64,000 bases of DNA from Pseudomonadota bacterium. Lineage in GTDB: Bacteria > Pseudomonadota > Gammaproteobacteria > Steroidobacterales > Steroidobacteraceae. The stretch is taken from contig JAJYDK010000022.1 of the NCBI GenBank assembly GCA_021777555.1, forward strand, positions 1-64,000. Direction: 5' to 3'. The notes beneath the pieces are model-generated. The model searched no databases. It saw only the letters and a list, made by a program, of their open reading frames with translations, and had not been told where the DNA came from. Position numbers and translations under genes: made by a program. Numbering within the stretch: position 1 is the first letter of the stretch; every line of letters begins with the position of its first letter. Positions 49,089-64,000 of this stretch are shown piece after piece.

Positions 49089-50393
49089 CTACTCGGCGCC
49101 CTGCAGCCGCCCGATGAGGGTGCGCAGGAACACCCGGTTGAACCGCAGCTGACAGGACATCGAGACCTGCTCGAGCTGCGTTGCACTCACCTTGAGCACC
49201 GTCACCACGCTGTCGGCGCGTACCGTGGCGGTGCGCTTCGCCCCGGGAATGTAGCTCGCCTCGCCGAAGCAGTCGCCCGTCCCGAGGGCGGCGATCCGCC
49301 GCCCGTGACGCTCGACGACACACTGGCCGGAGACCAGGACATAGAAGCGGTCATCGAGATCCCCCTCCCGGATGATCTCCTCGCCCTGGGCATAGTTCTG
49401 CCAGACGCTTGCGCGCAGCACCTCGCGCACTTCGACATGCGAGAACTCGTGGAAGAACTTCAGGCGCCGCAGCACGCCGAACTGCTCCTGCAGATCGAGG
49501 TGGGTATTGCTCTGGCGCAGGCGCTGGTGGACTCGGGCGAGCTCGGCGGCAAGCTCAAGTCCGCTGCGCTGGCGCTTGTCCGGATCCTTCTGCAGCGCCG
49601 TGACGACCACGTTCTCCAGCTCCTCGGACACCCCCGCCCGCAGCTTGTGGATCGGCGGCGGGGTCGCGTAGACGATCTGGTGAAGGAGCTTGTGCAGGTT
49701 GCCCGCACGGAAGGGACGCGAGCCGGTGAGCAGCTCGTACATGACCGCCCCGAGGGAGTAGATGTCCGAGCGGGGCGTCAGATCTAGACTCTGGACCTGC
49801 TCGGGCGACATGTAGGAGGGGCTGCCGGCGATCCCCTCGATCCGGGAAATGTCGGCATCGGAGACCAGCGCGATGCCGAAATCGATGATGCGCACCTCGC
49901 CATCCTGCGTCAGCAGGATGTTCGAAGGCTTGATGTCCCGATGAATCACCCCGCGCGTGTGCGCGTAGTGCAGCGCCTTCGCGCATTTGAAAACGATCTC
50001 GATGACATCATCGAGCGGCAGCAGATTGTCCGGGCGGCAGTAGGTGGACAGGGTCCGCGCGTGATGCACGTACTCGGTGACGATGTAGCAACGGCCGTTC
50101 TCCTCGCCGGCATCGAAGATGGGCAGCACATACGGATGCTGCAACATGCCGACCAGGTGGGCTTCGGACAGGAACATCTTGCGGGCGGAGCGCGAGCGCT
50201 GGGCGTCCGCGCCCGAATCGAGGTTGTATACCTTGATCGCGACATCGCGCCCGTAGTAGGCGTCATGCGAGAGATAGACCACGCCGGTGCTGCCGCGGCC
50301 GACCTCCTTGATCACCTCGTACTTTCCGATCCGCGCCGGAGCGCCTCGCACGCCGGATTGCGAAGACGCGGCAGATCCTGAGGCTTGGGACAT
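49089..50393 (-). CDS. Ser/Thr protein kinase fused to a cyclic-nucleotide-binding domain
   Basis: The 434-residue protein joins a Hanks-type kinase (about 24-290) to a C-terminal cyclic-nucleotide-binding domain (about 306-434). Kinase motifs are complete: GRGSTGVVYL loop, K54 in VAIK, HRDIKPSN (D153), DFG (171-173) and SYMSPEQ. The C-terminal domain keeps the phosphate-cassette pattern FGEASYIPGAKRTATV, so it may bind cAMP or a similar nucleotide. No membrane segment is seen, so it is cytoplasmic. It sits between thiL and a two-component pair on the same strand. A nucleotide-gated kinase is inferred; substrates are unknown. Confidence 0.9.
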   Translation of the reverse strand: MSQASGSAASSQSGVRGAPARIGKYEVIKEVGRGSTGVVYLSHDAYYGRDVAIKVYNLDSGADAQRSRSARKMFLSEAHLVGMLQHPYVLPIFDAGEENGRCYIVTEYVHHARTLSTYCRPDNLLPLDDVIEIVFKCAKALHYAHTRGVIHRDIKPSNILLTQDGEVRIIDFGIALVSDADISRIEGIAGSPSYMSPEQVQSLDLTPRSDIYSLGAVMYELLTGSRPFRAGNLHKLLHQIVYATPPPIHKLRAGVSEELENVVVTALQKDPDKRQRSGLELAAELARVHQRLRQSNTHLDLQEQFGVLRRLKFFHEFSHVEVREVLRASVWQNYAQGEEIIREGDLDDRFYVLVSGQCVVERHGRRIAALGTGDCFGEASYIPGAKRTATVRADSVVTVLKVSATQLEQVSMSCQLRFNRVFLRTLIGRLQGAE

Positions 50394-50516
50394 GTCTCGC
50401 AAGGGGTTGTGGGGTATGCGCCAGGATACGCTGCGCACGAGCGGCCCGGCTGTGATGCGCCCCAAGGATTGGCCGCACAGCGCCTGCGGCGATTTCACTT
50501 AACCGTGAGCGCTGCC

Positions 50517-51954: not shown

Positions 51955-52427
51955 GATCCCAGCCGCGCCATGAGTCCCGCCATCTCGAGCGCCGCCTCCA
52001 TCGCCTCCCCGCCCTTGTTGCCGGCGCTCACCGCCGCACGCTCGATCGCCTGCTCCACCGTGTCCACGGTGAGCACTCCGAAAATGACCGGCACGCCGGT
52101 ATCGAGGCCGACCTGCTGCAATCCGCGGGCGCACTCGTTCGAGATGTACTCGAAGTGCGGCGTACCGCCGCGGATGACGCACCCGAGAGCCACCACCGCA
52201 TCGTAGCGCCCACCGGCGGCGAGCCTGCGCGCGGCGACCGGCAGCTCGAAAGCCCCGGGGACGCGGGCGATGAGCAGATCCTCCGCCGCGCCGCCGCGCT
52301 CCAGCCAGGCGCTCGTGGCCCCCTTGAGGAGGCTCGAGACGATGAAATCATTGAAACGGGCCGCAACGATCGCGACCTTGCGGCCGCGCGCGACAACCTC
52401 CCCTTCCAGCATGCGTGGCGCGCTCAA
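51951..52427 (-). CDS. ribH: 6,7-dimethyl-8-ribityllumazine synthase
   Basis: RibH joins the pyrimidine intermediate with 3,4-dihydroxy-2-butanone-4-phosphate, the penultimate step to riboflavin. The 158-residue protein shows AARFNDFIVSSLL, VPGAFELPVAARRLA, the substrate site VALGCVIRGGTPHFEY, and GNKGGEAMEAALEM. It overlaps ribB upstream and nusB downstream by four bases each. Confidence 0.96.
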   Translation of the reverse strand: MSAPRMLEGEVVARGRKVAIVAARFNDFIVSSLLKGATSAWLERGGAAEDLLIARVPGAFELPVAARRLAAGGRYDAVVALGCVIRGGTPHFEYISNECARGLQQVGLDTGVPVIFGVLTVDTVEQAIERAAVSAGNKGGEAMEAALEMAGLMARLGS

Positions 52428-53602
52428 GCATCCTCTCCAACGTAACTGTCGATCTCGAGACCGAACGCGGCAATGCCGTGTATCTGCTTGGGTGCCGACA
52501 ACACGCGCATGCGCTTCACACCCAGGTCCTTCAGGATCTGCGCACCGATACCGAAGGTCTTGAGCACTTCACTGCGCTGTGCCGCCGGCATGGCGCCGGA
52601 GGCGCCACCGGGGTCGGCGCCGCCCGGTGAGGCGAGCGCCCGCACCGACCCGAGCAGATCGCCGGAGGACTCCCGGTCGCGCAGAATGACGATCACGCCA
52701 TTGCCGGCGCTCGCCACGCGCTCCATGGCGTCACGCAGCGTCCAGGCGCGTGGATCGGCCCGGATGCCGAGCAGGTCGCGCAATGGATCGGCCACGTGGA
52801 CGCGCACCAGGGGCGAGTCCTGATCGAGGCAGCCCTTGGTGAGCGCGAGGTGCACCTCCTGGCTCACCCGGTCCTCGTAGGCGAAGAGGCGAAATTCCCC
52901 GAGCTCGGTCTGCACGATCTGCTCGGACACGCGCTCGATCGAGCGCTCGTTGCGCAGACGGTGGCGGATCAGGTCGGCGATCGTGCCAACCTTCAACCCG
53001 TGGCGCTGCGCGAACGCCTGGAGGTCGGGCCGACGAGCCATCGAACCGTCCTCGTTCATGACCTCACAGATCACTCCGACGGGTTGCAGGCCTGCGAGAC
53101 GGCACAGATCGACGGCGGCCTCGGTGTGACCGGTACGGACCAGCACCCCTCCCCGGCGTGCTCGCAACGGAAAGATATGCCCTGGCCGCGCGAAATCGGC
53201 CGCCTTGGCGTTCGCATCGGCCAGCCCGCGAATGGTCGCCGCACGGTCACTCGAGGAAACCCCAGTGGTGGTCCCCGATATCAAGTCGACCGAGACGGTA
53301 AAGGCGGTTCGATGCAATTCGCTATTGTTCGCAACCATTTGAGGAAGATCGAGACTCAATAGCCGATTTTCTTCCATGGGCACGCAGATGATGCCGCTGG
53401 CGTGGCGAATCATGAACGCCACGGCCTCCGGGGTGGCGAGCTCGGCCGCCATGATGAGGTCCCCCTCATTCTCGCGATCCTCATCGTCCATGATGATGAC
53501 CATCCGGCCGGCCTTCAGATCCTCGAGGATCTCCTCGACGGTATTGAGGCCCGCGGTCCGCTCCGAAGGAACATTGCCGGAGAGGGGAAGTACTGTGGAC
53601 AT
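52424..53602 (-). CDS. ribB: 3,4-dihydroxy-2-butanone 4-phosphate synthase with a degenerate GTP cyclohydrolase II half
   Basis: The 392-residue product has an N-terminal DHBP synthase domain with the catalytic DDEDRENEGDLIMAAEL loop and the RTGHTEAAVDL segment. The C-terminal half resembles GTP cyclohydrolase II, but the zinc Cys motif (GxxRCDC pattern) is missing: the matching region reads ADPLRDLLGIRADPR. This agrees with the RibBX-type fusions known in Proteobacteria, in which only the RibB activity remains, so a separate ribA should exist elsewhere. The ATG at 53602 suits the family start; an in-frame extension to 53755 does not. Confidence 0.93.
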   Translation of the reverse strand: MSTVLPLSGNVPSERTAGLNTVEEILEDLKAGRMVIIMDDEDRENEGDLIMAAELATPEAVAFMIRHASGIICVPMEENRLLSLDLPQMVANNSELHRTAFTVSVDLISGTTTGVSSSDRAATIRGLADANAKAADFARPGHIFPLRARRGGVLVRTGHTEAAVDLCRLAGLQPVGVICEVMNEDGSMARRPDLQAFAQRHGLKVGTIADLIRHRLRNERSIERVSEQIVQTELGEFRLFAYEDRVSQEVHLALTKGCLDQDSPLVRVHVADPLRDLLGIRADPRAWTLRDAMERVASAGNGVIVILRDRESSGDLLGSVRALASPGGADPGGASGAMPAAQRSEVLKTFGIGAQILKDLGVKRMRVLSAPKQIHGIAAFGLEIDSYVGEDA

Positions 53603-53763
53603 GGGAAACGCCTGGTGCGTGGGGCCCACTAGTATACCTGGGGGCGTCCGATCGGACCGACCGCTCGCCTGATCGTATATCGCGCCGAGACCGAGCCGGA
53701 TATTGGGGGCCACGAGGCCCTGCCTGTTGTTGCTGCCCAGCACCGGTGTTGACACTGCAAGCG

Positions 53764-55827
53764 CTACTGATGTGCCCGTGAAGCGGCCTCGTGCAGTGCG
53801 GGCATGGGCAGACGGAGATACCCGCCTGCGGGAATCCGTGCTTGACCGCGGCGGCTCAGGATGAAGCGGATGAACCGCCCGGCCCCGGTGCCGACGGCCT
53901 TGGAGTTGAAGTACGCGTAAACGGTCCGCTCGAGCGGGTAGCGGCCCTCGCGCAGGCTCCTGACAGTCGGCCGGCGATACGGCCCAGACGGGCTACGCGC
54001 CAGCGCGAGCGCTTTCACCGGCGATCCATTGCGCGGCAGCGCAGCGATCGCGAGACCGAAGGGATCTCGGCTCAGAGCACGAAGAATCCGGGCATGGCCG
54101 CCGCGCGCGCCGAGCTCGAACACATGCGACCACTCGAGCAACCCGGTGCCGCCGAGCACAGTGTCCCGAAAGAACCTCCCCGTGCCGCTGTCGCTGTCGG
54201 TCATGTACACATCGATCCGGTGCGCGGCCAACGGACCCTCGAGCCCGAGCTGTCCCCAAGTGCGCACACGCCCCACCCCCGGCGGCGGGCGCGCATCGAG
54301 CAAGCCCTGAAGCTGCGCAAAATCGATTCGCCGCAACGGATTGTCATTGCGCACCAACACAGCGAGCGCCGGTGATTTCCCCGTCGTACCGCGACTGCCC
54401 AGAAGAATCGGCACGCGCGCCGGAGCGTGGCGGAAAACCCATTCGAAGGCCTTGATTTCGCTATCCGTTGCCGCCCTTCCGATGAGGGCCACATCCGCCC
54501 GCCCCGTGTACAGTCCCGCCATGGCGGTGTCGCTGCCGCTCATGTGCAGATCGACCCGCGCGCGCCGATGGATCGCCTCGAAACCCCTCGCCCAACGGCG
54601 CGCCTGTGCCGCGAGCAGTGGATTGCCCCACACCCGCAGGGTGTCTCGAGACGCGACGCGCGCGGAGGTTTCCGGTCCGGTTCGCGTACCACGCCGCCGA
54701 GGACGGCCCCGGGAGCGGACACTCATGCGCCCGATGCGTCGAAGCTCGGCGCGGATCTGCCGCCGCCCGAGCGGCAGATAGCCGCTCTGCGCGATCAGCG
54801 CCTGTTGACCCTGGCGGCTCAGAATGAAGCGCAGAAACTCCGCCACCGCCGGATCGAGCGGTCTGCCTGGGGCATGGTCGACGAACGCGGGAATGATGCG
54901 AGTCAGCGGATAACTCTGCGTGATCAGGGTCCGCTGCGTCGCCCCGAGAGAGGGACCCGAAGCGCTCCAGGCGAGACGCAGCGCCCTCACCTTGGCGTTG
55001 GCGAAGCGGATATTCGAGACAGCGATGCCAGCGGGATCCCCGGCCAGCGCTTGCAGGATCTGCCGCCCGCGATCGTCCACCGAGCCGTCCGGCCGGGTGA
55101 AGGTGACGAACTCGCGGATGTCGGGATTCCACCGGTGGCCGCCGCCGAGCACCCTGTGGCGAAAGAACAGCGCGAAATCCTGATTGACCTTCCAGAAGTA
55201 AGGGTGGATGCGCCGCGCGGACCATGCGCCCTTGAGACCGAGCGCACCCCAGGTGCGAACGGTGGGCGCTCCAAGGCTCGGCGCATCGCCGAAGATTCCG
55301 GCGAGTTGCGCCACCGTCAGGCGCCGGAGCGGGTTGGCGCGATTGACGAACACCATGTGCGCATAATCGAAATAGTTCGTCTCGAGACTGCCGGTGGCGA
55401 TCTCGATGCGCGTCGGCGGATATCCCCGCTCACGCTCGAAAGCCTTCCTGGCCGCCGGCGAGATCTCCTCGCCGAGGATGGCGAGATTGCCTGCGCCGGT
55501 GTACAGCGCGCCGATCGCACTGGCCGTGCCGTACATCCGATTGACGATCCTGACATGGGGCTGATAGCGATGAAAGAGCCGGGCCCAGCGCCGCACGAGA
55601 GGACCGAGAAAGTCGTGTTTGGGACTGCCATGTCCCCACAGGCGAACCGTGCCCGCGACCTGGCGCAACGGCTGGTAGGCCGGGAGGGAAGCGACGAGCC
55701 GCGCGGCGTACGCGGCGGGCACGGCCGGCTCATCCGGCGCACCCGCCGCACGCGCGGCGACTGCCGCCGCCACCCAGAGGGCGGCACTGAGCGCGCAGAC
55801 TCGCCACCGGGGGGCAGCCACGCTCAT
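53764..55827 (-). CDS. Exported double-domain PstS-like binding protein
   Basis: The 687-residue protein has a signal peptide (1-30, ending AARAAGA) and two complete PstS-like domains. Domain 1 (about 50-350) carries GTVRLWG (59-65), RTWGALGLKG (191-200) and FLRFILSRQGQ (331-341). An Arg-rich linker (about 354-392) leads to domain 2, with DTLRVWG (395-401), RTWGQLGLEG (522-531) and IRFILSRRGQ (653-662). Domain 2 alone keeps a Ser-Gly-Thr loop (DSDSGT, 544-549), though the PstS Arg before it is replaced by Thr. Ligand unknown. It is the most downstream gene of the array, 19 bases after the next one. Confidence 0.88.
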   Translation of the reverse strand: MSVAAPRWRVCALSAALWVAAAVAARAAGAPDEPAVPAAYAARLVASLPAYQPLRQVAGTVRLWGHGSPKHDFLGPLVRRWARLFHRYQPHVRIVNRMYGTASAIGALYTGAGNLAILGEEISPAARKAFERERGYPPTRIEIATGSLETNYFDYAHMVFVNRANPLRRLTVAQLAGIFGDAPSLGAPTVRTWGALGLKGAWSARRIHPYFWKVNQDFALFFRHRVLGGGHRWNPDIREFVTFTRPDGSVDDRGRQILQALAGDPAGIAVSNIRFANAKVRALRLAWSASGPSLGATQRTLITQSYPLTRIIPAFVDHAPGRPLDPAVAEFLRFILSRQGQQALIAQSGYLPLGRRQIRAELRRIGRMSVRSRGRPRRRGTRTGPETSARVASRDTLRVWGNPLLAAQARRWARGFEAIHRRARVDLHMSGSDTAMAGLYTGRADVALIGRAATDSEIKAFEWVFRHAPARVPILLGSRGTTGKSPALAVLVRNDNPLRRIDFAQLQGLLDARPPPGVGRVRTWGQLGLEGPLAAHRIDVYMTDSDSGTGRFFRDTVLGGTGLLEWSHVFELGARGGHARILRALSRDPFGLAIAALPRNGSPVKALALARSPSGPYRRPTVRSLREGRYPLERTVYAYFNSKAVGTGAGRFIRFILSRRGQARIPAGGYLRLPMPALHEAASRAHQ

Positions 55828-55846
55828 CCGCGATGCCGTCCCGGGC

Positions 55847-57055
55847 TCAGCGCAATTTTCGCCACTGCGCCCAGGCCACCTTGGCCGTGAGCGGCAGATA
55901 CTTTCCATCACGCTCCACCGCCTCCTGACCCTGCCTGCTCACCACGTAGCGCAGGAATTCACGCACCAGAGGCTCGATCGAGCCCTTCTTGCCGTAGTTG
56001 GCAAACATGTAGATCTGGCTGTAAAGCGGATAGCTGCGATCGTGGATCGTCTCCAGGGTGTACGGCACGCACTTGCCTCCGGGGTGGCGCGCGATGGCCA
56101 GCACTTTCAGCTGCGGCGGGCGCTTGAAGGTCGGGGCGGCAACCCAGCCGATACCGTACCGGTCATGGGCCAGATCACTCTTCAAATTCCGTCCCAGCCT
56201 GCCGTTTTTCGTGACGTAATTGGCGTAGATGCGCAGCCGGTCGTTCCATTTGTCGCTGCCCTTCAAGATGAGGTCCGACATCTCGGTCGTCTGGTGATAC
56301 CGCATGTTGAGTCCAAATGGATCGATGGGCCGGTCGGCCCACTCGCCGGTGAGACCGAGCTGCCCCCAGGTGCGGATGTTCTCCCGTGAGCTGCGCGCAA
56401 CCTCGGGGTGCCAGCTTGTCCCCTTCCACCCCCCCAGACGCTCGGCGCCGAAAATGCCATCGAGCTGCTGCATGGTGAGGCAGCTCAACGGGTTGCCCCT
56501 GTTGACGAGGATCCCGTAGCCCGGCTGCCAGCCGGTCACGTCGTAAGAGCCGGTCGCGGCCGAGATGATGAGCGGATCGCGGTTCTTGTAGCGCTCGTAC
56601 ATGAGCTGCTCGGCGAAGGTGATCTTGCGCCCCACCCCGACATCGGCCACGCCGAACACCAGCGAGGGCACGGCGGCGAGCGTCGTCTTCATGTGAAATG
56701 CGATGCGCACGCCGGGCTCGTACTTCTGAAACCCCTTTTCCCAGTATTTGCCGAGGTTGCTGTCCTCGATGTAATTGCTGCCCCACATGCGCAACGTTCC
56801 GTGCACCTGCCGCTTCGGATGGTACGAGGGCAGTGCGCTCAGATCCCAGCGCTTGGTGTAGAAGGCCTTCTTCGCCTTGAGCACGACGAACTTCGCGCGG
56901 GCCGCCTGCAAAGCGAGCCCGTGCGCCACCTTGTCCGCCTGGGCACGCGCCGGCGGCGCGCCAGGATACACAGAGAGCGCAATCAGCGCGCCCACCGCCG
57001 CCGCGGCGCGCACCCCTGGGGGCAATCGTGAATTCATATCGGCTGCACCTTTCAT
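55847..57055 (-). CDS. Exported PstS-like binding protein, long-loop type with a Cys pair
   Basis: The 402-residue protein has a signal peptide (about 1-38) and a helical N-terminal extension before the PstS-like core. Core motifs are GTLRMWG (86-92), RTWGQLGLTG (228-237) and FLRYVVSRQGQ near 367-377. Ahead of the RTWG motif it carries an extra loop (GTSWHPEVARSSREN) shared with two other array members. C192 (SCLTMQQLD) and C329 (GGKCVPYTLE) match a Cys pair found in only one other paralogue, suggesting a disulfide. The SGT loop is absent. ATG 57037 is an alternative start with AAGG upstream. Ligand unknown. Confidence 0.87.
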   Translation of the reverse strand: MKGAADMNSRLPPGVRAAAAVGALIALSVYPGAPPARAQADKVAHGLALQAARAKFVVLKAKKAFYTKRWDLSALPSYHPKRQVHGTLRMWGSNYIEDSNLGKYWEKGFQKYEPGVRIAFHMKTTLAAVPSLVFGVADVGVGRKITFAEQLMYERYKNRDPLIISAATGSYDVTGWQPGYGILVNRGNPLSCLTMQQLDGIFGAERLGGWKGTSWHPEVARSSRENIRTWGQLGLTGEWADRPIDPFGLNMRYHQTTEMSDLILKGSDKWNDRLRIYANYVTKNGRLGRNLKSDLAHDRYGIGWVAAPTFKRPPQLKVLAIARHPGGKCVPYTLETIHDRSYPLYSQIYMFANYGKKGSIEPLVREFLRYVVSRQGQEAVERDGKYLPLTAKVAWAQWRKLR

Positions 57056-57061
57056 GTTCGT

Positions 57062-58174
57062 TCATTGGAATTTATGACGAGGCAGGTCCTCAGACGCGCC
57101 CCCGCGGGCGCGCAGCTCAGCCGCGCTGGACATCGACCCCGACAGTTTTCTCAGCTGCCGGGACGCCGACGGCGCGAGCACCGGCAGGTAGCCGCGGCCG
57201 AAGCGCAATACGTCCCGCTGCCCCTGACGGCTGAGCACGAACCTCAGGAACTCCCTCAGTCTCGGTGCGACCGGCCGGCCGGGTGGCTTGTTGAAATACA
57301 TTGCAACCAGCCGTGTCAGCGGATAGGCGTGGCTCATCACCGTCTCGCGCGTCGGGTCGAGGAATGCGCCACCGCGATGCGCGGAGAGCGCCACGGGCCT
57401 CACCTCGGCGTTGTGGTAGAGCAACCCGGCGTAGCCAATCGCATCGGGGTCATTCGCCATGGCGTTCACCATGCGCTGTCCGCCGTCGCTCGCCCCGCCC
57501 GTCGAGCCTTTCCGGTCGCGAAACTCCCGCAACGAGGGCCGCCACAGCCTCGACCCATCGAACACCTTCTGCTCGAAGAAGCGGGCGAAGCCGCGCGAGA
57601 GGGAAAGTCCATAGAGGTGAATCGGCCGATTGCGCCAGACGCCTGTGAGCCCGAGGTCGCCCCAGGTACGGATCGTGCGCGCCCTGGGCCCGCGCTCCAC
57701 GCTGAAGATCGCCCGCAGCTGACCGAGCGTGAGACCCCGGATCGGGTTGCCGCGATGCACGAACACCACCAGCGCGTAATCGCGATTGCGCACATCGAGG
57801 CTCCCGGTCACCACATCGACCCCGGTGGGCGGATAGCCGAATACTTCGCGGAATGCTTTGATCTCGGGCGGCCAGATCTCGCGCCCCATCAGCGCGAGGT
57901 CACCCCGTCCCGTGTACAGAGAGCCAATCGCCGCCGCGGTACCCACCAGGTGATTTTCGAATCTGACCCCCGGTTGATAGCGCCTGAAGTCACGCTCCCA
58001 GACGCGTACCAGCGCCCCGATGAAATCGCGCTTGCGGTCGTAGGCGCCATGGCCCCAGATGCGGATCGTGCCACTGACCGCCTGATGCGCCCGGTACGGT
58101 GGTGGCAGATCGAGAGCGCGGGCCGCGCCGCCGCACAGCAGCCCCAGGGCAAGCAAGGCCGCCGCAAGCCTCAT
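57062..58174 (-). CDS. Exported PstS-like binding protein, short-loop type
   Basis: The 370-residue protein has a signal peptide (1-20, ending ARA) and one PstS-like domain with GTIRIWG (35-41), RTWGDLGLTG (169-178) and FLRFVLSRQGQ (309-319). The region aligned with the PstS SGT phosphate loop reads LSLSRGFARFF. A basic, probably disordered tail of about 25 residues follows the domain. Its ATG overlaps the stop of the upstream paralogue by four bases. No lipobox is seen, so it should be soluble in the periplasm or secreted. Ligand unknown. Confidence 0.87.
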   Translation of the reverse strand: MRLAAALLALGLLCGGAARALDLPPPYRAHQAVSGTIRIWGHGAYDRKRDFIGALVRVWERDFRRYQPGVRFENHLVGTAAAIGSLYTGRGDLALMGREIWPPEIKAFREVFGYPPTGVDVVTGSLDVRNRDYALVVFVHRGNPIRGLTLGQLRAIFSVERGPRARTIRTWGDLGLTGVWRNRPIHLYGLSLSRGFARFFEQKVFDGSRLWRPSLREFRDRKGSTGGASDGGQRMVNAMANDPDAIGYAGLLYHNAEVRPVALSAHRGGAFLDPTRETVMSHAYPLTRLVAMYFNKPPGRPVAPRLREFLRFVLSRQGQRDVLRFGRGYLPVLAPSASRQLRKLSGSMSSAAELRARGGASEDLPRHKFQ

Positions 58175-59283
58175 TGCAGTCGCCGCAGCTGACGCCGTAG
58201 CGTCGAAACGCTCAACGGCAGGTATGAGCCATTACGGGCAATGATGTCCTGCCCCTGGCGGCTCAGGATGAATCGCAGGAACTCCTTTACCTGCGGCTTG
58301 AGGGGCGTGCCGGGCTTGCGGTCGAGCGCCGCATCGATGGAGCGTGCGAGCGGATAGGCACGCGTCTCAGCGGTACGCGCATCGAGCGCCACGCATGGCG
58401 CTGCGGAAGAGGCGGCCACTTTCAGGGTCTTCAACGCCGGATTGCCCGGCAGTGGCGGTGCGAGGGCAAGGCCGTCCGGGTCCCGCGCCGCGGCCCCGAG
58501 CACTGCCCTCCAACCCCCGACCACCTCGTGGTAGGCCGGATTCCACTTGTAGCTTCCTTCGAGGACGGCATGGCGCATGAAGACCGCGGCGATATTGCTC
58601 AGCGCCGGACCGTAGACATGGATGGGCCGGCCGGCCCAGCGGCCTTGCAGTCCGAGCGCGCCCCAACGACGCGCGTTACCGCCTCCGCGGCGGTGATCCG
58701 CTGCAAAGACATCATCGAGCTGGCGCAGGGTCAGACAAGAAAGCGGATTGTCCCGACTGACGAAGAAGGCGAGGTTCACACCCGGTCGCCGCACTCCCGT
58801 GCCGTCGCCGAGCCCCGCGTTGGCGATCTGCACCGTAAATGGCAGATAGTGGTGCACCCACTCGAACGCCATCGTCTCGAGCGGCACGCGGATCTCGCGC
58901 GCCATGAAAGCGATGTCTGCCACATCCATGTACACACCGGCAAACGTCGATTCCGGTCCGTGCAGCGTCACGAGTACGCGCGTGCGCGGCTGAAACCGCG
59001 CAAAGCCGGTCGCGAGCGCGCGGATGAGCGAGCCGTCCTCCGGTGAGCCCCAGATCCGGATCGTCCCCCGTACCTGCCGCGCGGGTGCGTAGGCGGGCAG
59101 CACTGCATCCCGCACCCGGTGCGCGGCAGACAAAGATGACTCGGAAACACCGTACGCACGCGCGCTGGCGGCCTGCGGACGGGCCGCTGCGCAGCACAGC
59201 ACCCCAATCGCGAAGACGGCGCCGCGCAGCAGCGCCTGAGGGCGCGTCTCACTCACGACGGTATCCCCCAAGGGCATCTGCAT
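58171..59283 (-). CDS. Exported PstS-like binding protein, short-loop type with a Cys pair
   Basis: The 370-residue protein has a signal peptide (about 12-42) and one domain with GTIRIWG (73-79), RRWGALGLQG (205-214) and FLRFILSRQGQ (335-345). C183 (SCLTLRQLD) and C297 (APCVALDAR) occupy the same places as the Cys pair of the protein at 55847-57055. The SGT loop is replaced by ALSNIAAVFM. The start is uncertain: ATG at 59283, or GTG at 59256 with GGGGGA upstream, which would put the signal peptide at the N-terminus. Ligand unknown. Confidence 0.86.
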   Translation of the reverse strand: MQMPLGDTVVSETRPQALLRGAVFAIGVLCCAAARPQAASARAYGVSESSLSAAHRVRDAVLPAYAPARQVRGTIRIWGSPEDGSLIRALATGFARFQPRTRVLVTLHGPESTFAGVYMDVADIAFMAREIRVPLETMAFEWVHHYLPFTVQIANAGLGDGTGVRRPGVNLAFFVSRDNPLSCLTLRQLDDVFAADHRRGGGNARRWGALGLQGRWAGRPIHVYGPALSNIAAVFMRHAVLEGSYKWNPAYHEVVGGWRAVLGAAARDPDGLALAPPLPGNPALKTLKVAASSAAPCVALDARTAETRAYPLARSIDAALDRKPGTPLKPQVKEFLRFILSRQGQDIIARNGSYLPLSVSTLRRQLRRLQ

Positions 59284-59315
59284 TCATGTCCGTGCCGCTG
59301 CCGAACGGACCCGGC

Positions 59316-60407
59316 TCAAAGCGCAAGTCCAACGGGCCGGAAGATCCAGACCGCCCCGGGCTCACCCGAATGCGGTGGAACGGCCACGCACAACTCGTCG
59401 AGGCCCGGAACGAACTGCGACGTTCCCGAATGAGGGCCCGACCGCACCGTGGCCACGAGGGCGTAATCATTGGCATCGAGCTGCCGATAGGCCTGCACGA
59501 AGCCCTGCAAACTCGTCGTGTAGATGAGGCCGTGCGCTGCGTCCAGGTACATGTCCTCGGTTGCGTCCTTGCTCGGAAGGCTCGCGATCCATCTGCCGGT
59601 TGCGAGGTTGAGCACATTGAAAGTGGGCGGCCGCGGGTCTCCGGCAATGGTGCGCGTGGCGACGAACAGGCGCCCGTGCGCCTCATCGAGAGCCATCGAG
59701 GCCGGCCGGCCGGGAACCGACAGACGCCTGATGATGCGCCGCGTATCGGTATCGACCACCGCCACCTGATCGAGGCCCGGAATCGCCACGTACAGCAGGG
59801 GGCTGCGCCGCGCCATGACGAGCGCCGCGGCGCGATACCCGGTATTGATGCGACCGACGAGCCTGCCCGTGGCCGGATCGATCAGCGCGAGCCAGCCCGG
59901 CCCACGCTTCGAGTCGATGCCGCCGGACTCGACGTAGAGCAGCCGGTGCCTCGGGTCGAAGGCAATCATGTCCGCGCCGACGGAGACTTTGAGGGTCGCG
60001 ACGGTACGATAGCCGTGGCCGCGGAGGATGCGCACCACGCCGTCGCGTCCGTTGGTGACCACCAGGCGATCGAAAGACGGCACATACAGCTCTCCCTGCG
60101 GTCTGTCGAACCCGCCCGAGAGGCCGCGGATCGCTCCCTTCTTCAGAGGCACAACGTACACGCGCTGCTGGTCCTGGGCGGACAGGAACAGCCGTTCGGT
60201 CTTCGGATCGACCGTCATGTGGTCCCAAGTCCCCGTCATTTGCGGCACGGGGATCTTGCCTGCAAGGTCGAGCACCGGGGCCGCCGCCGCGGCCACCGCA
60301 GAGCCAGCGGCCGCGAGGCTCACAGCGGACGCCGAGGACACGAGGGCAGCGCGGCAGGCGTGCGCCCAGCGCCTGTAAGGGTGTCGGCGGACGAGGCTCG
60401 CTATCAT
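59316..60407 (-). CDS. Exported YVTN/YncE-like beta-propeller protein
   Basis: The 363-residue protein has a signal peptide (about 1-42, rich in Ala) and repeated beta-blades of about 40-45 residues. Examples are DPKTERLFLSAQDQQRVYVV, DPRHRLLYVESG, RSPLLYVAIPGLDQVAVVDT, DEAHGRLFVAT and DAAHGLIYTTS. Such propellers bind proteins, nucleic acids or metals and are not usually enzymes. It is the only array gene that is not a binding protein, sitting 18 bases after one and 32 bases before another, so it is presumably co-expressed and may be a scaffold or partner. Confidence 0.85.
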   Translation of the reverse strand: MIASLVRRHPYRRWAHACRAALVSSASAVSLAAAGSAVAAAAAPVLDLAGKIPVPQMTGTWDHMTVDPKTERLFLSAQDQQRVYVVPLKKGAIRGLSGGFDRPQGELYVPSFDRLVVTNGRDGVVRILRGHGYRTVATLKVSVGADMIAFDPRHRLLYVESGGIDSKRGPGWLALIDPATGRLVGRINTGYRAAALVMARRSPLLYVAIPGLDQVAVVDTDTRRIIRRLSVPGRPASMALDEAHGRLFVATRTIAGDPRPPTFNVLNLATGRWIASLPSKDATEDMYLDAAHGLIYTTSLQGFVQAYRQLDANDYALVATVRSGPHSGTSQFVPGLDELCVAVPPHSGEPGAVWIFRPVGLAL

Positions 60408-60425
60408 GTCGGAATCTCCTTCGCA

Positions 60426-61547
60426 CTACAGGGTCGCGGGCAGCTTCTTCAGCTGCGCGGCCACGATGGCCGGGGTGAGCGGCAGGAAGCTGCCCTCGCG
60501 CAGCACCTGCTCCTGGCCCTGGCGACTGAGGATGTAGCGTAGAAACTCCACGACGACCGGGTCGGGGGGAATCCTCGGCCCATCGTTGATGTAGAACTTC
60601 ACGGCCCGCGACAACGGATAGCTTCGGTCCGCCACGTTGGCCAGGGTCGGCTCGATGTAGGGACCGGCCGGGTGCACGGCGATGGCGATGAGCTTGGCAT
60701 CGGCGTTGCGGTAGCCGGCCGAGGTGAGCGCGATGCCATCCGGATCCGCGGCGACCGAGTCGACGGCGCGTTGATAACCGTTGATGCGCTTACCGCCCGG
60801 GCCCTCGGCCCCGCCAAGCTGCTGCAGCGCACAGTTCCACAGGGTGCTGCCACGCATGACGGTCTGCGAGAAGTAAAACCAGGGCGCCTCGTCGGTGGAA
60901 GGTCCGCTGTAAGGATGGATCGTACGGTTCCGCCACGCGCCTTTGAGCCCGAGCTCACCCCAGGTGCGGATGCTGTGCGCCTCCCCACGCAGAGGCCGAG
61001 CTCCGAAGATCGCGTCGAGTTGCCGGAAGTCCAGACGCGCGAGCGGATTGTCCCTGTTGACGAACACCCCGAGTGCCATGATCTTGTCCGGATCGGCGTA
61101 GGCGCCGGTCAGCACCGTGACCGGGAAGGGCTTCTGTCCTGCGACCTTGCGATAGGCCGCCGCCTCCATCGGTACGATCTCGCGCGCCAACACACCCAGG
61201 TTGGCCCTGTGGGTGTAGAGGCCGGCCATCGCGGCGCCGCTGCTGAGCAGATCATCCTTGAAGCTGACGTGAGGCTGGAATCGGTGAAAGCCCCGCTCCC
61301 AGTCATGCATCATCACCTTCAGGAATCCGTGCCCCCAGCTGCGGATCGTGCCGCTCACCTGGCGGCGCGGCTGGTAGCGGGGCAGTGATTTCACGTACCG
61401 CGCCCAGGGCGGCACATTGACCTCAGGGGAACGGGCCTGCGCGGCCGGCAGGCACAGGCACGACAGCATGACGAGCGCCGCGCGACGCGGTGAGAGCTGC
61501 AAGCGAGCCCGCTCGGACATATCCGCCTGCCCGCTCCGGCCATTCAT
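60426..61547 (-). CDS. Exported PstS-like binding protein, short-loop type
   Basis: The 373-residue protein has a signal peptide (about 10-38, ending AQA) and one domain with GTIRSWG (66-72), RTWGELGLKG (194-203) and FLRYILSRQGQ (335-345). The loop aligned with PstS SGT reads PSTDEAPWFYF. Both Cys positions of the paired-Cys paralogues are non-Cys. Its ATG overlaps the stop of the upstream paralogue by four bases. The ORF can also begin at an internal ATG nine codons later (61520). Ligand unknown. Confidence 0.87.
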   Translation of the reverse strand: MNGRSGQADMSERARLQLSPRRAALVMLSCLCLPAAQARSPEVNVPPWARYVKSLPRYQPRRQVSGTIRSWGHGFLKVMMHDWERGFHRFQPHVSFKDDLLSSGAAMAGLYTHRANLGVLAREIVPMEAAAYRKVAGQKPFPVTVLTGAYADPDKIMALGVFVNRDNPLARLDFRQLDAIFGARPLRGEAHSIRTWGELGLKGAWRNRTIHPYSGPSTDEAPWFYFSQTVMRGSTLWNCALQQLGGAEGPGGKRINGYQRAVDSVAADPDGIALTSAGYRNADAKLIAIAVHPAGPYIEPTLANVADRSYPLSRAVKFYINDGPRIPPDPVVVEFLRYILSRQGQEQVLREGSFLPLTPAIVAAQLKKLPATL

Positions 61548-62809
61548 CGCGTCGTCTGCCCGACGGGCCGGCCGACCTCCAGATCCTCGAGCCTGTGCAA
61601 CTGCCCGGCGGCCACCTTGGCGGTGAGCGGCAGGTATTTGCCGTCACGCTCGACCAACTGCTGGCCCTGGCGGCTCAGGACGAAGCGGATGAACTCGAAG
61701 ATTTTGGGATCGAGACGCCGACCGGGCTTGGCCTCCACCCAGAACGACTGATCGCCCCAGAGCGGGTAGGAACGGGCCTGCTCAGTCTCGAGCGTCAGCG
61801 GCACGTACGGCCCGGCCGATGTCTTCGCAATCGCGAGCACCTTCACGGTCTTCGGCAGATCCTCGTGATAGCGGATGTAGCCGATGCCGCCCGGATCCCG
61901 CGCCACGTGATCGATGATCTGATCGCTCTCGAGATACGTCCTGCCGTCGCGCTTGTAATTGCCGAATGCGAGCAGATTTCCATTCCACTTGTCGCTCGAC
62001 TTCAGCACATCGTCGGAGAACTCGAGCGCTGTCGAATAGCGCAGGCTGAATCCATAGGTGTCCACCGCACGGTCTGCCCACACACCCTTGAGACCCATCT
62101 GGCCCCAGCGGCGGATATTGTCCTCGGGGCCGCGCGCGAAGTCCGGGCGCCACGTGGTCCCTACCCAGCCCCCGGCTCGTTGCGAGCCGAACATGCCATC
62201 GAGTTGGCGCATGGTTACGCCCGTGAGGGGATTGGCGGAATTGACAATGATGGCGAACGAATTCTGCCAGCCGATCACGTCGTAGGAGCCGGTGACCGCG
62301 GAAATGTTCGTCGGCAGGTATCCTTTCAGCCGCAGGTTGGACAGGTCGTCGTAAAACAGCGCCTGATGACCTATGGCAATGTCAGCCCGATCCTCGTAGA
62401 GGCATGGGATCGCATTGGCCGCGGTCTGCAGGTGATAGACGATCTTGATGCCCGGCTGGTACTTCTGGAAGGCCCTCTTCCACCACCCGCCCAGAGGCGA
62501 GTCTCCGACGTAATTATTTCCGCAAATGGTGAGCGTCCCGCGCGGATGCGACGTCGGCACGTAGTTCGGCAGTCCGCTCAGGTCGAACTTCTTCGTATAG
62601 AACCGCGAGTACGCCACGGCATGCATGCGCGCGCGCCGCTCCGCAGCCGAGCCATGCGGGAACTTCCGGGACAGCGCATTCGCGCGGTAGAGCTTCAGCC
62701 AGGGCGCGGAATTCCCCCCGGCCTGCGGCGCCGGCGCCGCCGGGGCCAGCGCACACAGGACGAGCGGCAGCACCGCGACTCCATACAGGGACACACGTAG
62801 TTTGTTCAC
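61544..62809 (-). CDS. Exported PstS-like binding protein, long-loop type
   Basis: The 421-residue protein starts at a GTG with AGGAGAG seven bases upstream. It has a signal peptide (about 1-26) and a helical N-terminal extension (about 30-80) like that of the protein at 55847-57055, including the shared FYTKKFDLSGLPNY segment. Core motifs are GTLTICG (91-97), RRWGQMGLKG (233-242) and IRFVLSRQGQ (374-383), with the extra loop GTTWRPDFARGPEDN before the middle motif. The SGT loop is replaced by SLRYSTALEF. Ligand unknown. Confidence 0.87.
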   Translation of the reverse strand: MNKLRVSLYGVAVLPLVLCALAPAAPAPQAGGNSAPWLKLYRANALSRKFPHGSAAERRARMHAVAYSRFYTKKFDLSGLPNYVPTSHPRGTLTICGNNYVGDSPLGGWWKRAFQKYQPGIKIVYHLQTAANAIPCLYEDRADIAIGHQALFYDDLSNLRLKGYLPTNISAVTGSYDVIGWQNSFAIIVNSANPLTGVTMRQLDGMFGSQRAGGWVGTTWRPDFARGPEDNIRRWGQMGLKGVWADRAVDTYGFSLRYSTALEFSDDVLKSSDKWNGNLLAFGNYKRDGRTYLESDQIIDHVARDPGGIGYIRYHEDLPKTVKVLAIAKTSAGPYVPLTLETEQARSYPLWGDQSFWVEAKPGRRLDPKIFEFIRFVLSRQGQQLVERDGKYLPLTAKVAAGQLHRLEDLEVGRPVGQTTR

Positions 62810-62914
62810 CAGACTCTCCTGAAAGGTAATTGCCGGCCCCGCCAGACCTGCGGCGCAGCGCTCATCGGGTTACTCGAACTCGACGCGGGGCAATGGCGCG
62901 CGGCCGTGGACGCT

Positions 62915-64000
62915 TCAGTCGATCTTCTTCAGCTGCTTCCTGATATACGACTCGGGCAGCGGACTGTAGATACCCTGTCTCTGAATGATCTCCTGGCCCT
63001 GCCGGGAGAGCACGAAGCGCAGGAACTCGCGAACCTTGGGGTTGAGCGGCTGGCCGGGCGTCCTGTTGACATAGATGTAGGCATCGCGCATGAGCGGATA
63101 GCTGCGATTGCGCACGTTTGCGGGGGTCAGCGGAATCGCCGGACCGGATTTCCTCCAGGAGATCGCCAGCACTTTGACGTTGGGGTAATTTTGGCACTTG
63201 CTGCCATCCGGGTTGACGCAGGTGCCATCGACGTGCATCAGAGCCCCCCAGCCGATCGCGTATTTGTTCTCGCTGATCGCCTTGTACATGTTCTGGCTCC
63301 AGACCTTGCGCCCGTCCGGCCCCGGCACCGCTTCCTTCTCCTCGACGTATTCCCTGAAATTCCCGTTCCACTTGTCCGACCAGTGCATCACCTTGCGCTC
63401 GAAGTCCACCGCGAAGCCGGGCGCGACGTAACCGTAGGTCTGAATGGGCTGGTTTGCCCAGCTGCCCTTGAGGCCCAGCTGTCCCCAGGTTCTGATGTTG
63501 CTCTTTGCGCTGCGCGCGTACTTGGCCGTGAACAGGATGGCATGCTCGGGTCCGCCGACCTGCCAGGCGCCGGTGCGCGCCGAACCGAAAATCTCATCGA
63601 GCTGGCGCATCGAGAGGTGCGCGATGGGATTGTTCTTGTTCACCATGATGGCCCATGCGTACAGGCAGCCCCGCATGTTGTAGCAGCCGGTTGCGATCGA
63701 CACCTCGGTCGGCGTGTAGCCGAAGGTGTTGTAGAAGGGCATCTGATCGGTGACCTTGGCGTCATCGCCCATGGGCGCGATTTCCGAGACACCCGCATCG
63801 AGCATGCCGATCGCCCCCTCGCTCTCGGTCTCGAAGTTCATCGAGACCTCCGCCTGCGGCTGGTACTTCTGGAATCCCTTGACCAGCTTCGGGATCAGTC
63901 CCATGAGCGGACTGCCGGCGATCGGCAGGCGGCCCACCACGTGATACTCCGGCTTGTACTCTGGAATCCGGCTCAACACCGGCTCCTGGGCGAACGCCGA
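62915..64000 (-). CDS. Exported PstS-like binding protein, cut by the right window edge
   Basis: The frame is open to the window edge, and its first visible residues (SAFAQEP) look like the end of a signal peptide, so only the N-terminal start is missing. The domain has a degenerate first motif (GRLPIAG), then RTWGQLGLKG and FLRFVLSRQGQ. It carries the long-loop insertion and is richest in Cys: CYNMRGC and CVNPDGSKC are two closely spaced pairs. The SGT loop is replaced by VAPGFAVDFE. The 105-base gap to the next gene is the largest in the array. Ligand unknown. Confidence 0.86.
   Translation of the reverse strand, partial: SAFAQEPVLSRIPEYKPEYHVVGRLPIAGSPLMGLIPKLVKGFQKYQPQAEVSMNFETESEGAIGMLDAGVSEIAPMGDDAKVTDQMPFYNTFGYTPTEVSIATGCYNMRGCLYAWAIMVNKNNPIAHLSMRQLDEIFGSARTGAWQVGGPEHAILFTAKYARSAKSNIRTWGQLGLKGSWANQPIQTYGYVAPGFAVDFERKVMHWSDKWNGNFREYVEEKEAVPGPDGRKVWSQNMYKAISENKYAIGWGALMHVDGTCVNPDGSKCQNYPNVKVLAISWRKSGPAIPLTPANVRNRSYPLMRDAYIYVNRTPGQPLNPKVREFLRFVLSRQGQEIIQRQGIYSPLPESYIRKQLKKID

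Follow-up and report, generated by a model that had tools for sequence, protein, structure and literature searches.

In Xanthomonas PhoX, a PstS protein, phosphate is contacted by Ser34, Ser62, Asp80, Arg159, Gly164, Thr165 and Asn201 (PMC5439949). A different use of periplasmic binding proteins is described for pyoverdine release, where two such proteins form a complex with an inner-membrane reductase behind a TonB-dependent receptor (PMC6954188). The hiuABC genes of Caulobacter pair a receptor with a PepSY reductase, as their abstract states (PMC13001220), and the TTT/Bug expansions provide a large paralogous set of binding proteins of which many lack a transporter (PMC5994714). Here we consider a locus with features of several of these systems: a minus-strand array of seven genes encoding eight PstS-like domains at positions 53764-64000 of the window, the 64,000-nucleotide stretch of Steroidobacteraceae DNA that was analysed (contig C86:1-64000 of a draft genome of 4.0 Mb and 117 contigs). 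Both counts, given in a preliminary description made from the sequence of the window, were confirmed. With slightly less than even confidence, we propose that the array forms the periplasmic portion of an envelope system that is coupled to TonB and handles several non-phosphate ligands, most likely metal chelates (ferric or other) or organic anions. The system-level part of this proposal (TonB-coupled, non-phosphate, periplasmic) is well supported, and we give it far more weight than the nature of the ligand.

The array resembles PstS (TIGR02136) in fold and scaffold motifs, and its best solved relatives are PstS proteins (PDB 4omb and 4pqj; PhoX, PMC5439949). It differs in having lost the phosphate motif, in standing without PstCAB, and in forming arrays and fusions within a receptor operon. 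As in the Pseudomonas FpvC/FpvF/FpvG system, a siderophore-type receptor encoded upstream would feed periplasmic binding proteins, and a reductase is encoded in some related loci; unlike in that system, the proteins are of the PstS fold, they are many, and this operon encodes no reductase (PMC6954188). As for an ATP-binding cassette (ABC) transporter like FpvDE, no transporter gene was seen in the operon, and no genome-wide search was made. The combination of receptor and PepSY reductase at some related arrays recalls hiuABC, whose abstract names no binding proteins (PMC13001220). The TTT/Bug proteins belong to PF03401 and are scattered over the genome and recently expanded (PMC5994714), whereas the array is clustered, old and of another family; its proteins never matched PF03401, the family of TTT/Bug and TctC proteins, in a Pfam search (E 0.001).

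No description of PstS arrays with TonB receptors was found in literature searches that covered few subscription journals, judged by titles and the starts of abstracts, and neither PstS nor PepSY occurs in the available text of a review of sphingomonad TonB transporters (PMC7142613). The parts are known folds, and we regard the assembly as an undescribed variant of TonB-coupled uptake, which may prove to be a new class. Because they match TIGR02136, the array proteins are likely called phosphate-binding by automatic annotation; if our proposal is true, many such "PstS" annotations in several phyla are wrong. The partners of the arrays are, by contrast, a siderophore-type receptor, a propeller-like protein and, in some loci, a reductase of the iron-chelate type.

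Related loci and the phosphate site

Relatives were sought in named genome contigs with the peptide patterns of the family, and 77 loci, which are not a random sample, were taken from the best 80 of 571 relatives, with genes called by our own codon-score script. At least three PstS-like domains are present in 38 of these loci (arrays), two in 5 and one in 34 (singles), and the taxa include Sphingomonas, Roseateles/Pelomonas, Opitutaceae, Acidobacteria, Eremiobacterota and a Phycisphaeraceae bacterium. The survey of other genomes suggested in the preliminary description did, then, recover the same kind of array elsewhere. Three carriers are named strains, Sphingomonas gilva ZDH117 (L029), Pelomonas sp. 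KK5 (L026) and Roseateles saccharophilus DSM 654 (L027), which makes our proposal testable; the stretch examined in the last of these holds three domains and no receptor of the siderophore type. The Fisher values below compare arrays with singles and ignore kinship; L025 and L033 share a contig, as do L037 and L042, and some other loci share a genome. Queries for PstC/PstA, receptor and propeller came from the window's genome.

By phmmer, PstC/PstA was found at none of the 38 arrays, at none of the 5 two-domain loci and at 28 of the 34 singles (Fisher 2e-14), and a hidden Pst operon was rejected as an explanation. Among the six singles without PstC/PstA, L021, L038 and L044 belong to the array clade and lack the phosphate motif, and L064, L070 and L093 have it. 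At the locus itself, the stretch from 53764 to the end of the contig (66324) encodes neither permease nor ATPase, so that PstCAB is not at the array, as had been noted within the window, and no complete pstCAB operon turned up directly upstream.

The full Arg-Ser-Gly-Thr phosphate motif (R-x-x-x-S-G-T) occurs in 0 of 261 array domains vs 28 of 28 Pst-linked proteins, a difference that would make ordinary phosphate binding by the array proteins unlikely. At 12 phosphate-motif positions, mapped by alignment to Pst-linked relatives and not by superposition, array domains score 1-7 and Pst-linked proteins 8-12. In a tree of 296 domains of at least 200 amino acids (aa), the 261 array domains group with the lone domains of L021, L038 and L044 in a single clade (support 0.82) that excludes the 31 remaining singles. 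Scaffold residues are conserved in the array and Pst-linked groups alike, and G124, L153 and W211 (numbering of protein 57062-58174) are conserved specifically in the array. The model of this protein (predicted local distance difference test, pLDDT, 92.2) has 4omb as its best Foldseek match (E 7e-33, root-mean-square deviation 6.5), with a modest template-modelling score (TM) of 0.51 that, as we read it, may reflect an open, hinge-like difference. The same structure is best in a profile search of the PDB (E 4e-79), and homology to PstS/PBP_like_2 and likeness of fold, which a structure comparison had been proposed to check, both hold.

All seven PstS-like proteins match TIGR02136 (gene 58171-59283 at E 3e-11), and in Pfam (E 0.001) they match PF12849 or nothing, gene 58171-59283 having no match. 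The TIGR02136 score was rejected as a discriminator, because the genome's own Pst-linked PstS (77.6 bits) is below the cut-off of 206.6 bits just as the best array protein is (124.1 bits, the two-domain protein). Two motifs had been taken as signs that the domains arose by duplication. R-x-W-G-x-x-G-L-x-G is indeed present in all eight domains, and the C-terminal L-S-R-(Q/R)-G-Q in seven, with VSRQGQ in gene 55847-57055; as evidence of duplication they fail, since Pst-linked PstS proteins conserve them equally. They belong to the scaffold of the PstS family, and both were rejected as array markers.

The fold and the family homology could also mean that the array proteins still bind phosphate or phosphorus compounds through an altered site and feed a Pst permease encoded elsewhere, and PstS, PstC and PstA are indeed encoded on another contig of the genome. 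We think this improbable: not one array domain retains R-S-G-T, PstC/PstA is near none of the 38 arrays, and the adjoining receptor belongs to a siderophore subfamily.

The receptor operon, its front end and its partners

Beyond the window edge, where the preliminary description had imagined an outer-membrane receptor, extension of the locus to the right revealed a TonB-dependent receptor gene 23 bases upstream of the first array gene. By score it falls in the siderophore subfamily (257.7 bits vs the TIGR01783 cut-off of 223.5), and its nearest solved relatives in the PDB are pyochelin, ferrichrome, ferrioxamine and pseudopaline receptors, CntO among them; by subfamily it is a putative ferric-siderophore transporter. 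The operon runs from right to left on the minus strand, in the order receptor, PstS-like genes 1-3, propeller-like gene, PstS-like genes 4-7.

Contig C2 of the same genome ends with ribD, ribE (our naming), a hybrid histidine kinase, one more PstS-like gene and a response regulator of the NarL type. C2 and C86 adjoin each other, as the final 127 bases of C2 match the receptor end of C86 exactly. The regulator is divergent from the receptor operon, and the kinase has a Cache domain and is near the NahK/ErcS type (386 bits vs a cut-off of 400). Three same-genus loci show a comparable layout: in L105 a single contig spans ribE, kinase, divergent regulator, receptor, PstS-like genes, propeller and ribBA, in L106 the regulator, the receptor and the array genes follow one another as they do at the window's locus, and L104 is arranged alike except that its receptor is a remnant. 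Together with the overlap of C2 and C86, these loci place the block between ribE and ribBA (window 52424-53764 and the end of C2; the same in the same-genus loci). A 22-bp element, GGCGATARCNCCTTCGGGYTAG, lies between regulator and receptor (G000:C2:48799-48820). It was found once each in 4 of 58 same-genus genomes and nowhere else in them (at most 2 mismatches), and a reversed control pattern was found in 0 of 58. L104, L105 and L106 have the element too, and in L017, a relative among the named genomes, three successive PstS-like genes follow it at a distance of 29 bases.

Since kinase and divergent regulator directly precede the array, with a PstS-like gene between them in the window's genome, the array proteins might be mainly sensory co-receptors that dock on the Cache hybrid kinase, as TorT does on TorS and LuxP on LuxQ, so that the array would detect many ligands and, by way of the NarL-type regulator, govern the receptor operon. 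The 22-bp element between regulator and receptor, found once each in four of the genus genomes, is in keeping with such control. However, L104 and L105 lack the PstS-like gene that separates kinase and regulator here, the kinase already has its own Cache sensor, a single kinase would be served by an unusually large number of binding proteins (two to fifteen), and related arrays stand with different kinases or regulators, or with none in the stretch examined. We consider a mainly sensory role unlikely.

Several partners recur at the surveyed arrays. The receptor was found at 13 of 38 arrays, 2 of 5 two-domain loci and 0 of 34 singles (Fisher 9e-5), or at 14 of 38 arrays when BLAST-clustered ones are counted; since four of the eight arrays with complete flanks have it, it is common but not universal (30 of the 38 arrays are cut by the end of the stretch, and 8 have at least 3 kb on both flanks). 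The propeller was found by phmmer at 11, 0 and 0 loci of the three classes (5e-4) and by profile at 12, 0 and 1. In L025 (Opitutae), 15 domains surround a propeller in one stretch. PepSY_TM occurs at 10 of 38 arrays, 1 of 5 two-domain loci and 0 of 34 singles (1e-3), and C0, a small secreted family, at 19, 2 and 1 (4e-6), the lone single being L038, a member of the array clade. Examples of C0 are L034:8379-8855 and L065:13244-13750. It has no Pfam match (L065), no NCBIfam match (L034) and no PDB sequence match better than E 0.97; its model (pLDDT 89.7) has weak fold matches, of which the periplasmic domain of T4 holin ranks first by E-value (E 1.5e-4), followed by ligand domains of the IclR type and by GAF domains (query TM mostly 0.4-0.56).

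The propeller-like protein of the operon (59316-60407) has no Pfam match and only weak NCBIfam matches far below the cut-offs (35.6 bits for YncE NF052280, where 400 are required); it matches PDB 1l0q, a surface layer protein, at E 2.4e-11, and the evidence that it is a propeller is modest. A PstS-like domain and a propeller share one chain of 698 aa in L104:15107-17203 (phmmer E 4e-152), which ties the propeller to the binding proteins. Other fusions join PstS-like domains to one another: four in one open chain in L104:11673-15125 (about 1150 aa) and in L108, and two in L013:9174-11156, a second two-domain protein (660 aa) of the array clade, with no receptor in the stretch examined. In E. 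coli, the TonB-dependent receptor YncD is reportedly encoded near the exported propeller YncE, without PstS-like proteins. The array locus shares receptor and exported propeller with that pair and adds the PstS-like proteins.

Proposed function, ligands and age of the array

In the mechanism that we propose, the receptor would import into the periplasm ligands that are scarce and chelated, either metal chelates (ferric or other) or organic anions. There the PstS-fold proteins, having lost the phosphate motif and diverged from one another, would each hold a different ligand or ligand state (loaded or unloaded) and pass it to a reductase (of the PepSY type in a quarter of the surveyed arrays), a symporter or a sensor kinase. 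No ABC permease would be needed at the locus, because the cargo would be released or read in the periplasm, much as at the FpvC/FpvF/FpvG station, the closest parallel that is known in detail. Capture of a family of ligands, one of the roles first suggested for the array, would fit best when set alongside the receptor, and nothing was found in favour of a decoy role. If this is true, the locus encodes a TonB-coupled system whose cargo is sorted by a bank of binding proteins and not by a permease. It is possible, though we hold it doubtful, that it represents an undescribed class of TonB-coupled machine, in which a many-ligand receptor is followed by sorting in a periplasmic bank of paralogous PstS-fold proteins, specificity residing in the bank and not in receptor or permease, with the propeller and, in many relatives, a GAF-like secreted protein serving as hand-over parts.

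Some neighbours hint at carboxylates as ligands: 2HCT and SDF symporters, fusions of a TctC (tricarboxylate-binding) domain to a LuxR-type DNA-binding domain beside array genes (L107:11939-13402 and L114:6454-7905), and L111:3578-11087, where malate synthase, isocitrate lyase, a PepSY gene and three array-type genes stand in a row. The fusions look like regulators built from a solute-binding protein. By gene size, L112 and L113 have a layout like that of L111.

Several observations weigh against the TonB-coupled proposal or its ligands. CntO, among the receptor's nearest solved relatives, is one that we take to serve a metallophore for metals other than iron; iron is therefore not certain as cargo, and a receptor of this subfamily can carry other metals. 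The window's operon contains no PepSY gene or inner-membrane reductase. No FeoB_C match was found in the genome (a control search was positive in 7 of 14 genomes), and iron entry through FeoB was rejected. In L104 the receptor was called only as a 121-aa remnant, with the array kept, and the receptor is absent from 4 of the 8 arrays whose flanks are complete. The profiles for C0, PepSY and SDF were built from clusters picked in loci with at least two domains, a choice that makes their counts lean toward arrays; an association with the SDF symporter was rejected as not significant (5 of 38 arrays, 1 of 5 two-domain loci, 1 of 34 singles; Fisher 0.20).

By a crude script, the N-terminus is hydrophobic and signal-peptide-like in all seven PstS-like proteins and the propeller, and a simple lipobox pattern was not found in the first 45 residues of these eight. 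Such export, the lack of a lipobox, the large sets and the fusions of up to four domains might suit proteins that are secreted or displayed on the surface and serve outside the cell in structure, adhesion or scavenging, roles reported for certain PstS and DING proteins. Yet no secretion genes were noticed in the operon, though no systematic search was made for them, inner-membrane reductases are among the recurrent partners, and the DING motif (the sequence from which DING proteins are named) is found in none of the seven array proteins, on which ground DING-protein identity was rejected. A role outside the cell strikes us as very improbable.

The domains of the window are 27-45% identical to one another, and for 249 of 257 array domains (the L042 copies having been dropped) the closest relative lies on another contig, which may belong to the same genome; the paralogues are thus old types kept together and not fresh copies. 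Against same-genus L106, the ratio of nonsynonymous to synonymous substitution (dN/dS) ranges over 0.07-0.26 in the seven genes compared, which are the receptor, the propeller and five PstS-like genes (all but the final two of the array); the receptor and PstS-like gene 1 have the smallest values. These seven genes are under purifying selection, and the frames are open; the decay into pseudogenes against which the array was to be checked was not seen, and we rejected it. The spread of the array is patchy, with any match in 19 of 58 genomes of the window's genus, matches at four or more places in 11 of 58, and matches at E 1e-60 in 8 of 117 genomes of an order sample, two of them from the window's genus. 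This patchiness, the differing gene content of sister loci and the receptor remnant in L104 might be expected of a locally expanded, largely redundant family, spread by horizontal transfer and with little function of its own, but the purifying selection on the genes compared, the recurrent partners, the age of the paralogues and the conserved 22-bp control element make this, in our judgement, extremely unlikely.

Gene layout and other PstS-like units of the genome

The genes were described at first as seven in a row. Seven they are, though the row is broken by the propeller-like gene, the fourth of eight (Table 1). The four-base overlaps reported at two junctions are at 61544-61547 and 58171-58174. 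For PstS-like protein 7, a start at 55827, past the preceding gene, is more likely than that of the listed frame.

Table 1. Genes of the receptor operon, listed from right to left in window positions unless stated otherwise.
Feature	Position	Strand	Remarks
TonB-dependent receptor, 724 aa	contig 64147-66321, outside the window	-	opens the operon
PstS-like protein 1, 402 aa	62915-64000	-	cut by the window edge; start at contig 64123
PstS-like protein 2, 421 aa	61544-62809	-	4-base overlap with next gene
PstS-like protein 3, 373 aa	60426-61547	-	
Exported beta-propeller-like protein (YVTN/YncE-like), 363 aa	59316-60407	-	
PstS-like protein 4, 370 aa	58171-59283	-	4-base overlap with next gene
PstS-like protein 5, 370 aa	57062-58174	-	modelled, pLDDT 92.2
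PstS-like protein 6, 402 aa	55847-57055	-	
PstS-like protein 7, two domains	53764-55911	-	listed frame 715 aa

The genome has 13 places of the TIGR02136 type, 8 at the array, 3 on contig C101, 1 on C2 and 1 on C69. With the array profile, 8 of the genome's 12 matching places sit at the array, a concentration that is not explained by chance. The C69 gene stands with two permease genes and is the ordinary PstS. L016:5013-8340 carries pstS, pstC and pstA with no same-strand pstB following; pstB was not searched for elsewhere.

One of the C101 loci is a second unit of this kind. It comprises an extracytoplasmic function (ECF) sigma factor (above the general cut-off, below that for FecI), FecR, a receptor carrying an STN domain, a PstS-like gene, a gene grouped with the propellers by BLAST, a gene without a Pfam match and a two-component pair, and a 2HCT symporter of the citrate type is close by. 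With 38 receptor-barrel matches and four ExbD matches in the genome, a single adjoining receptor might be a coincidence; the existence of two ordered units and the results of the survey speak against this. PepSY_TM has a single match in the genome, at G000:C79:33610-34647 (L121). The frame around it has about 700 aa, and its second half, judged by eye, resembles an oxidoreductase with an iron-sulphur end.

On its 3′ side the array is followed by ribBA, ribH and thiL, the last two named from their frames only. Between thiL and a two-component pair, window 49089-50498 encodes a fusion of a Ser/Thr protein kinase domain with a cyclic-nucleotide-binding domain.

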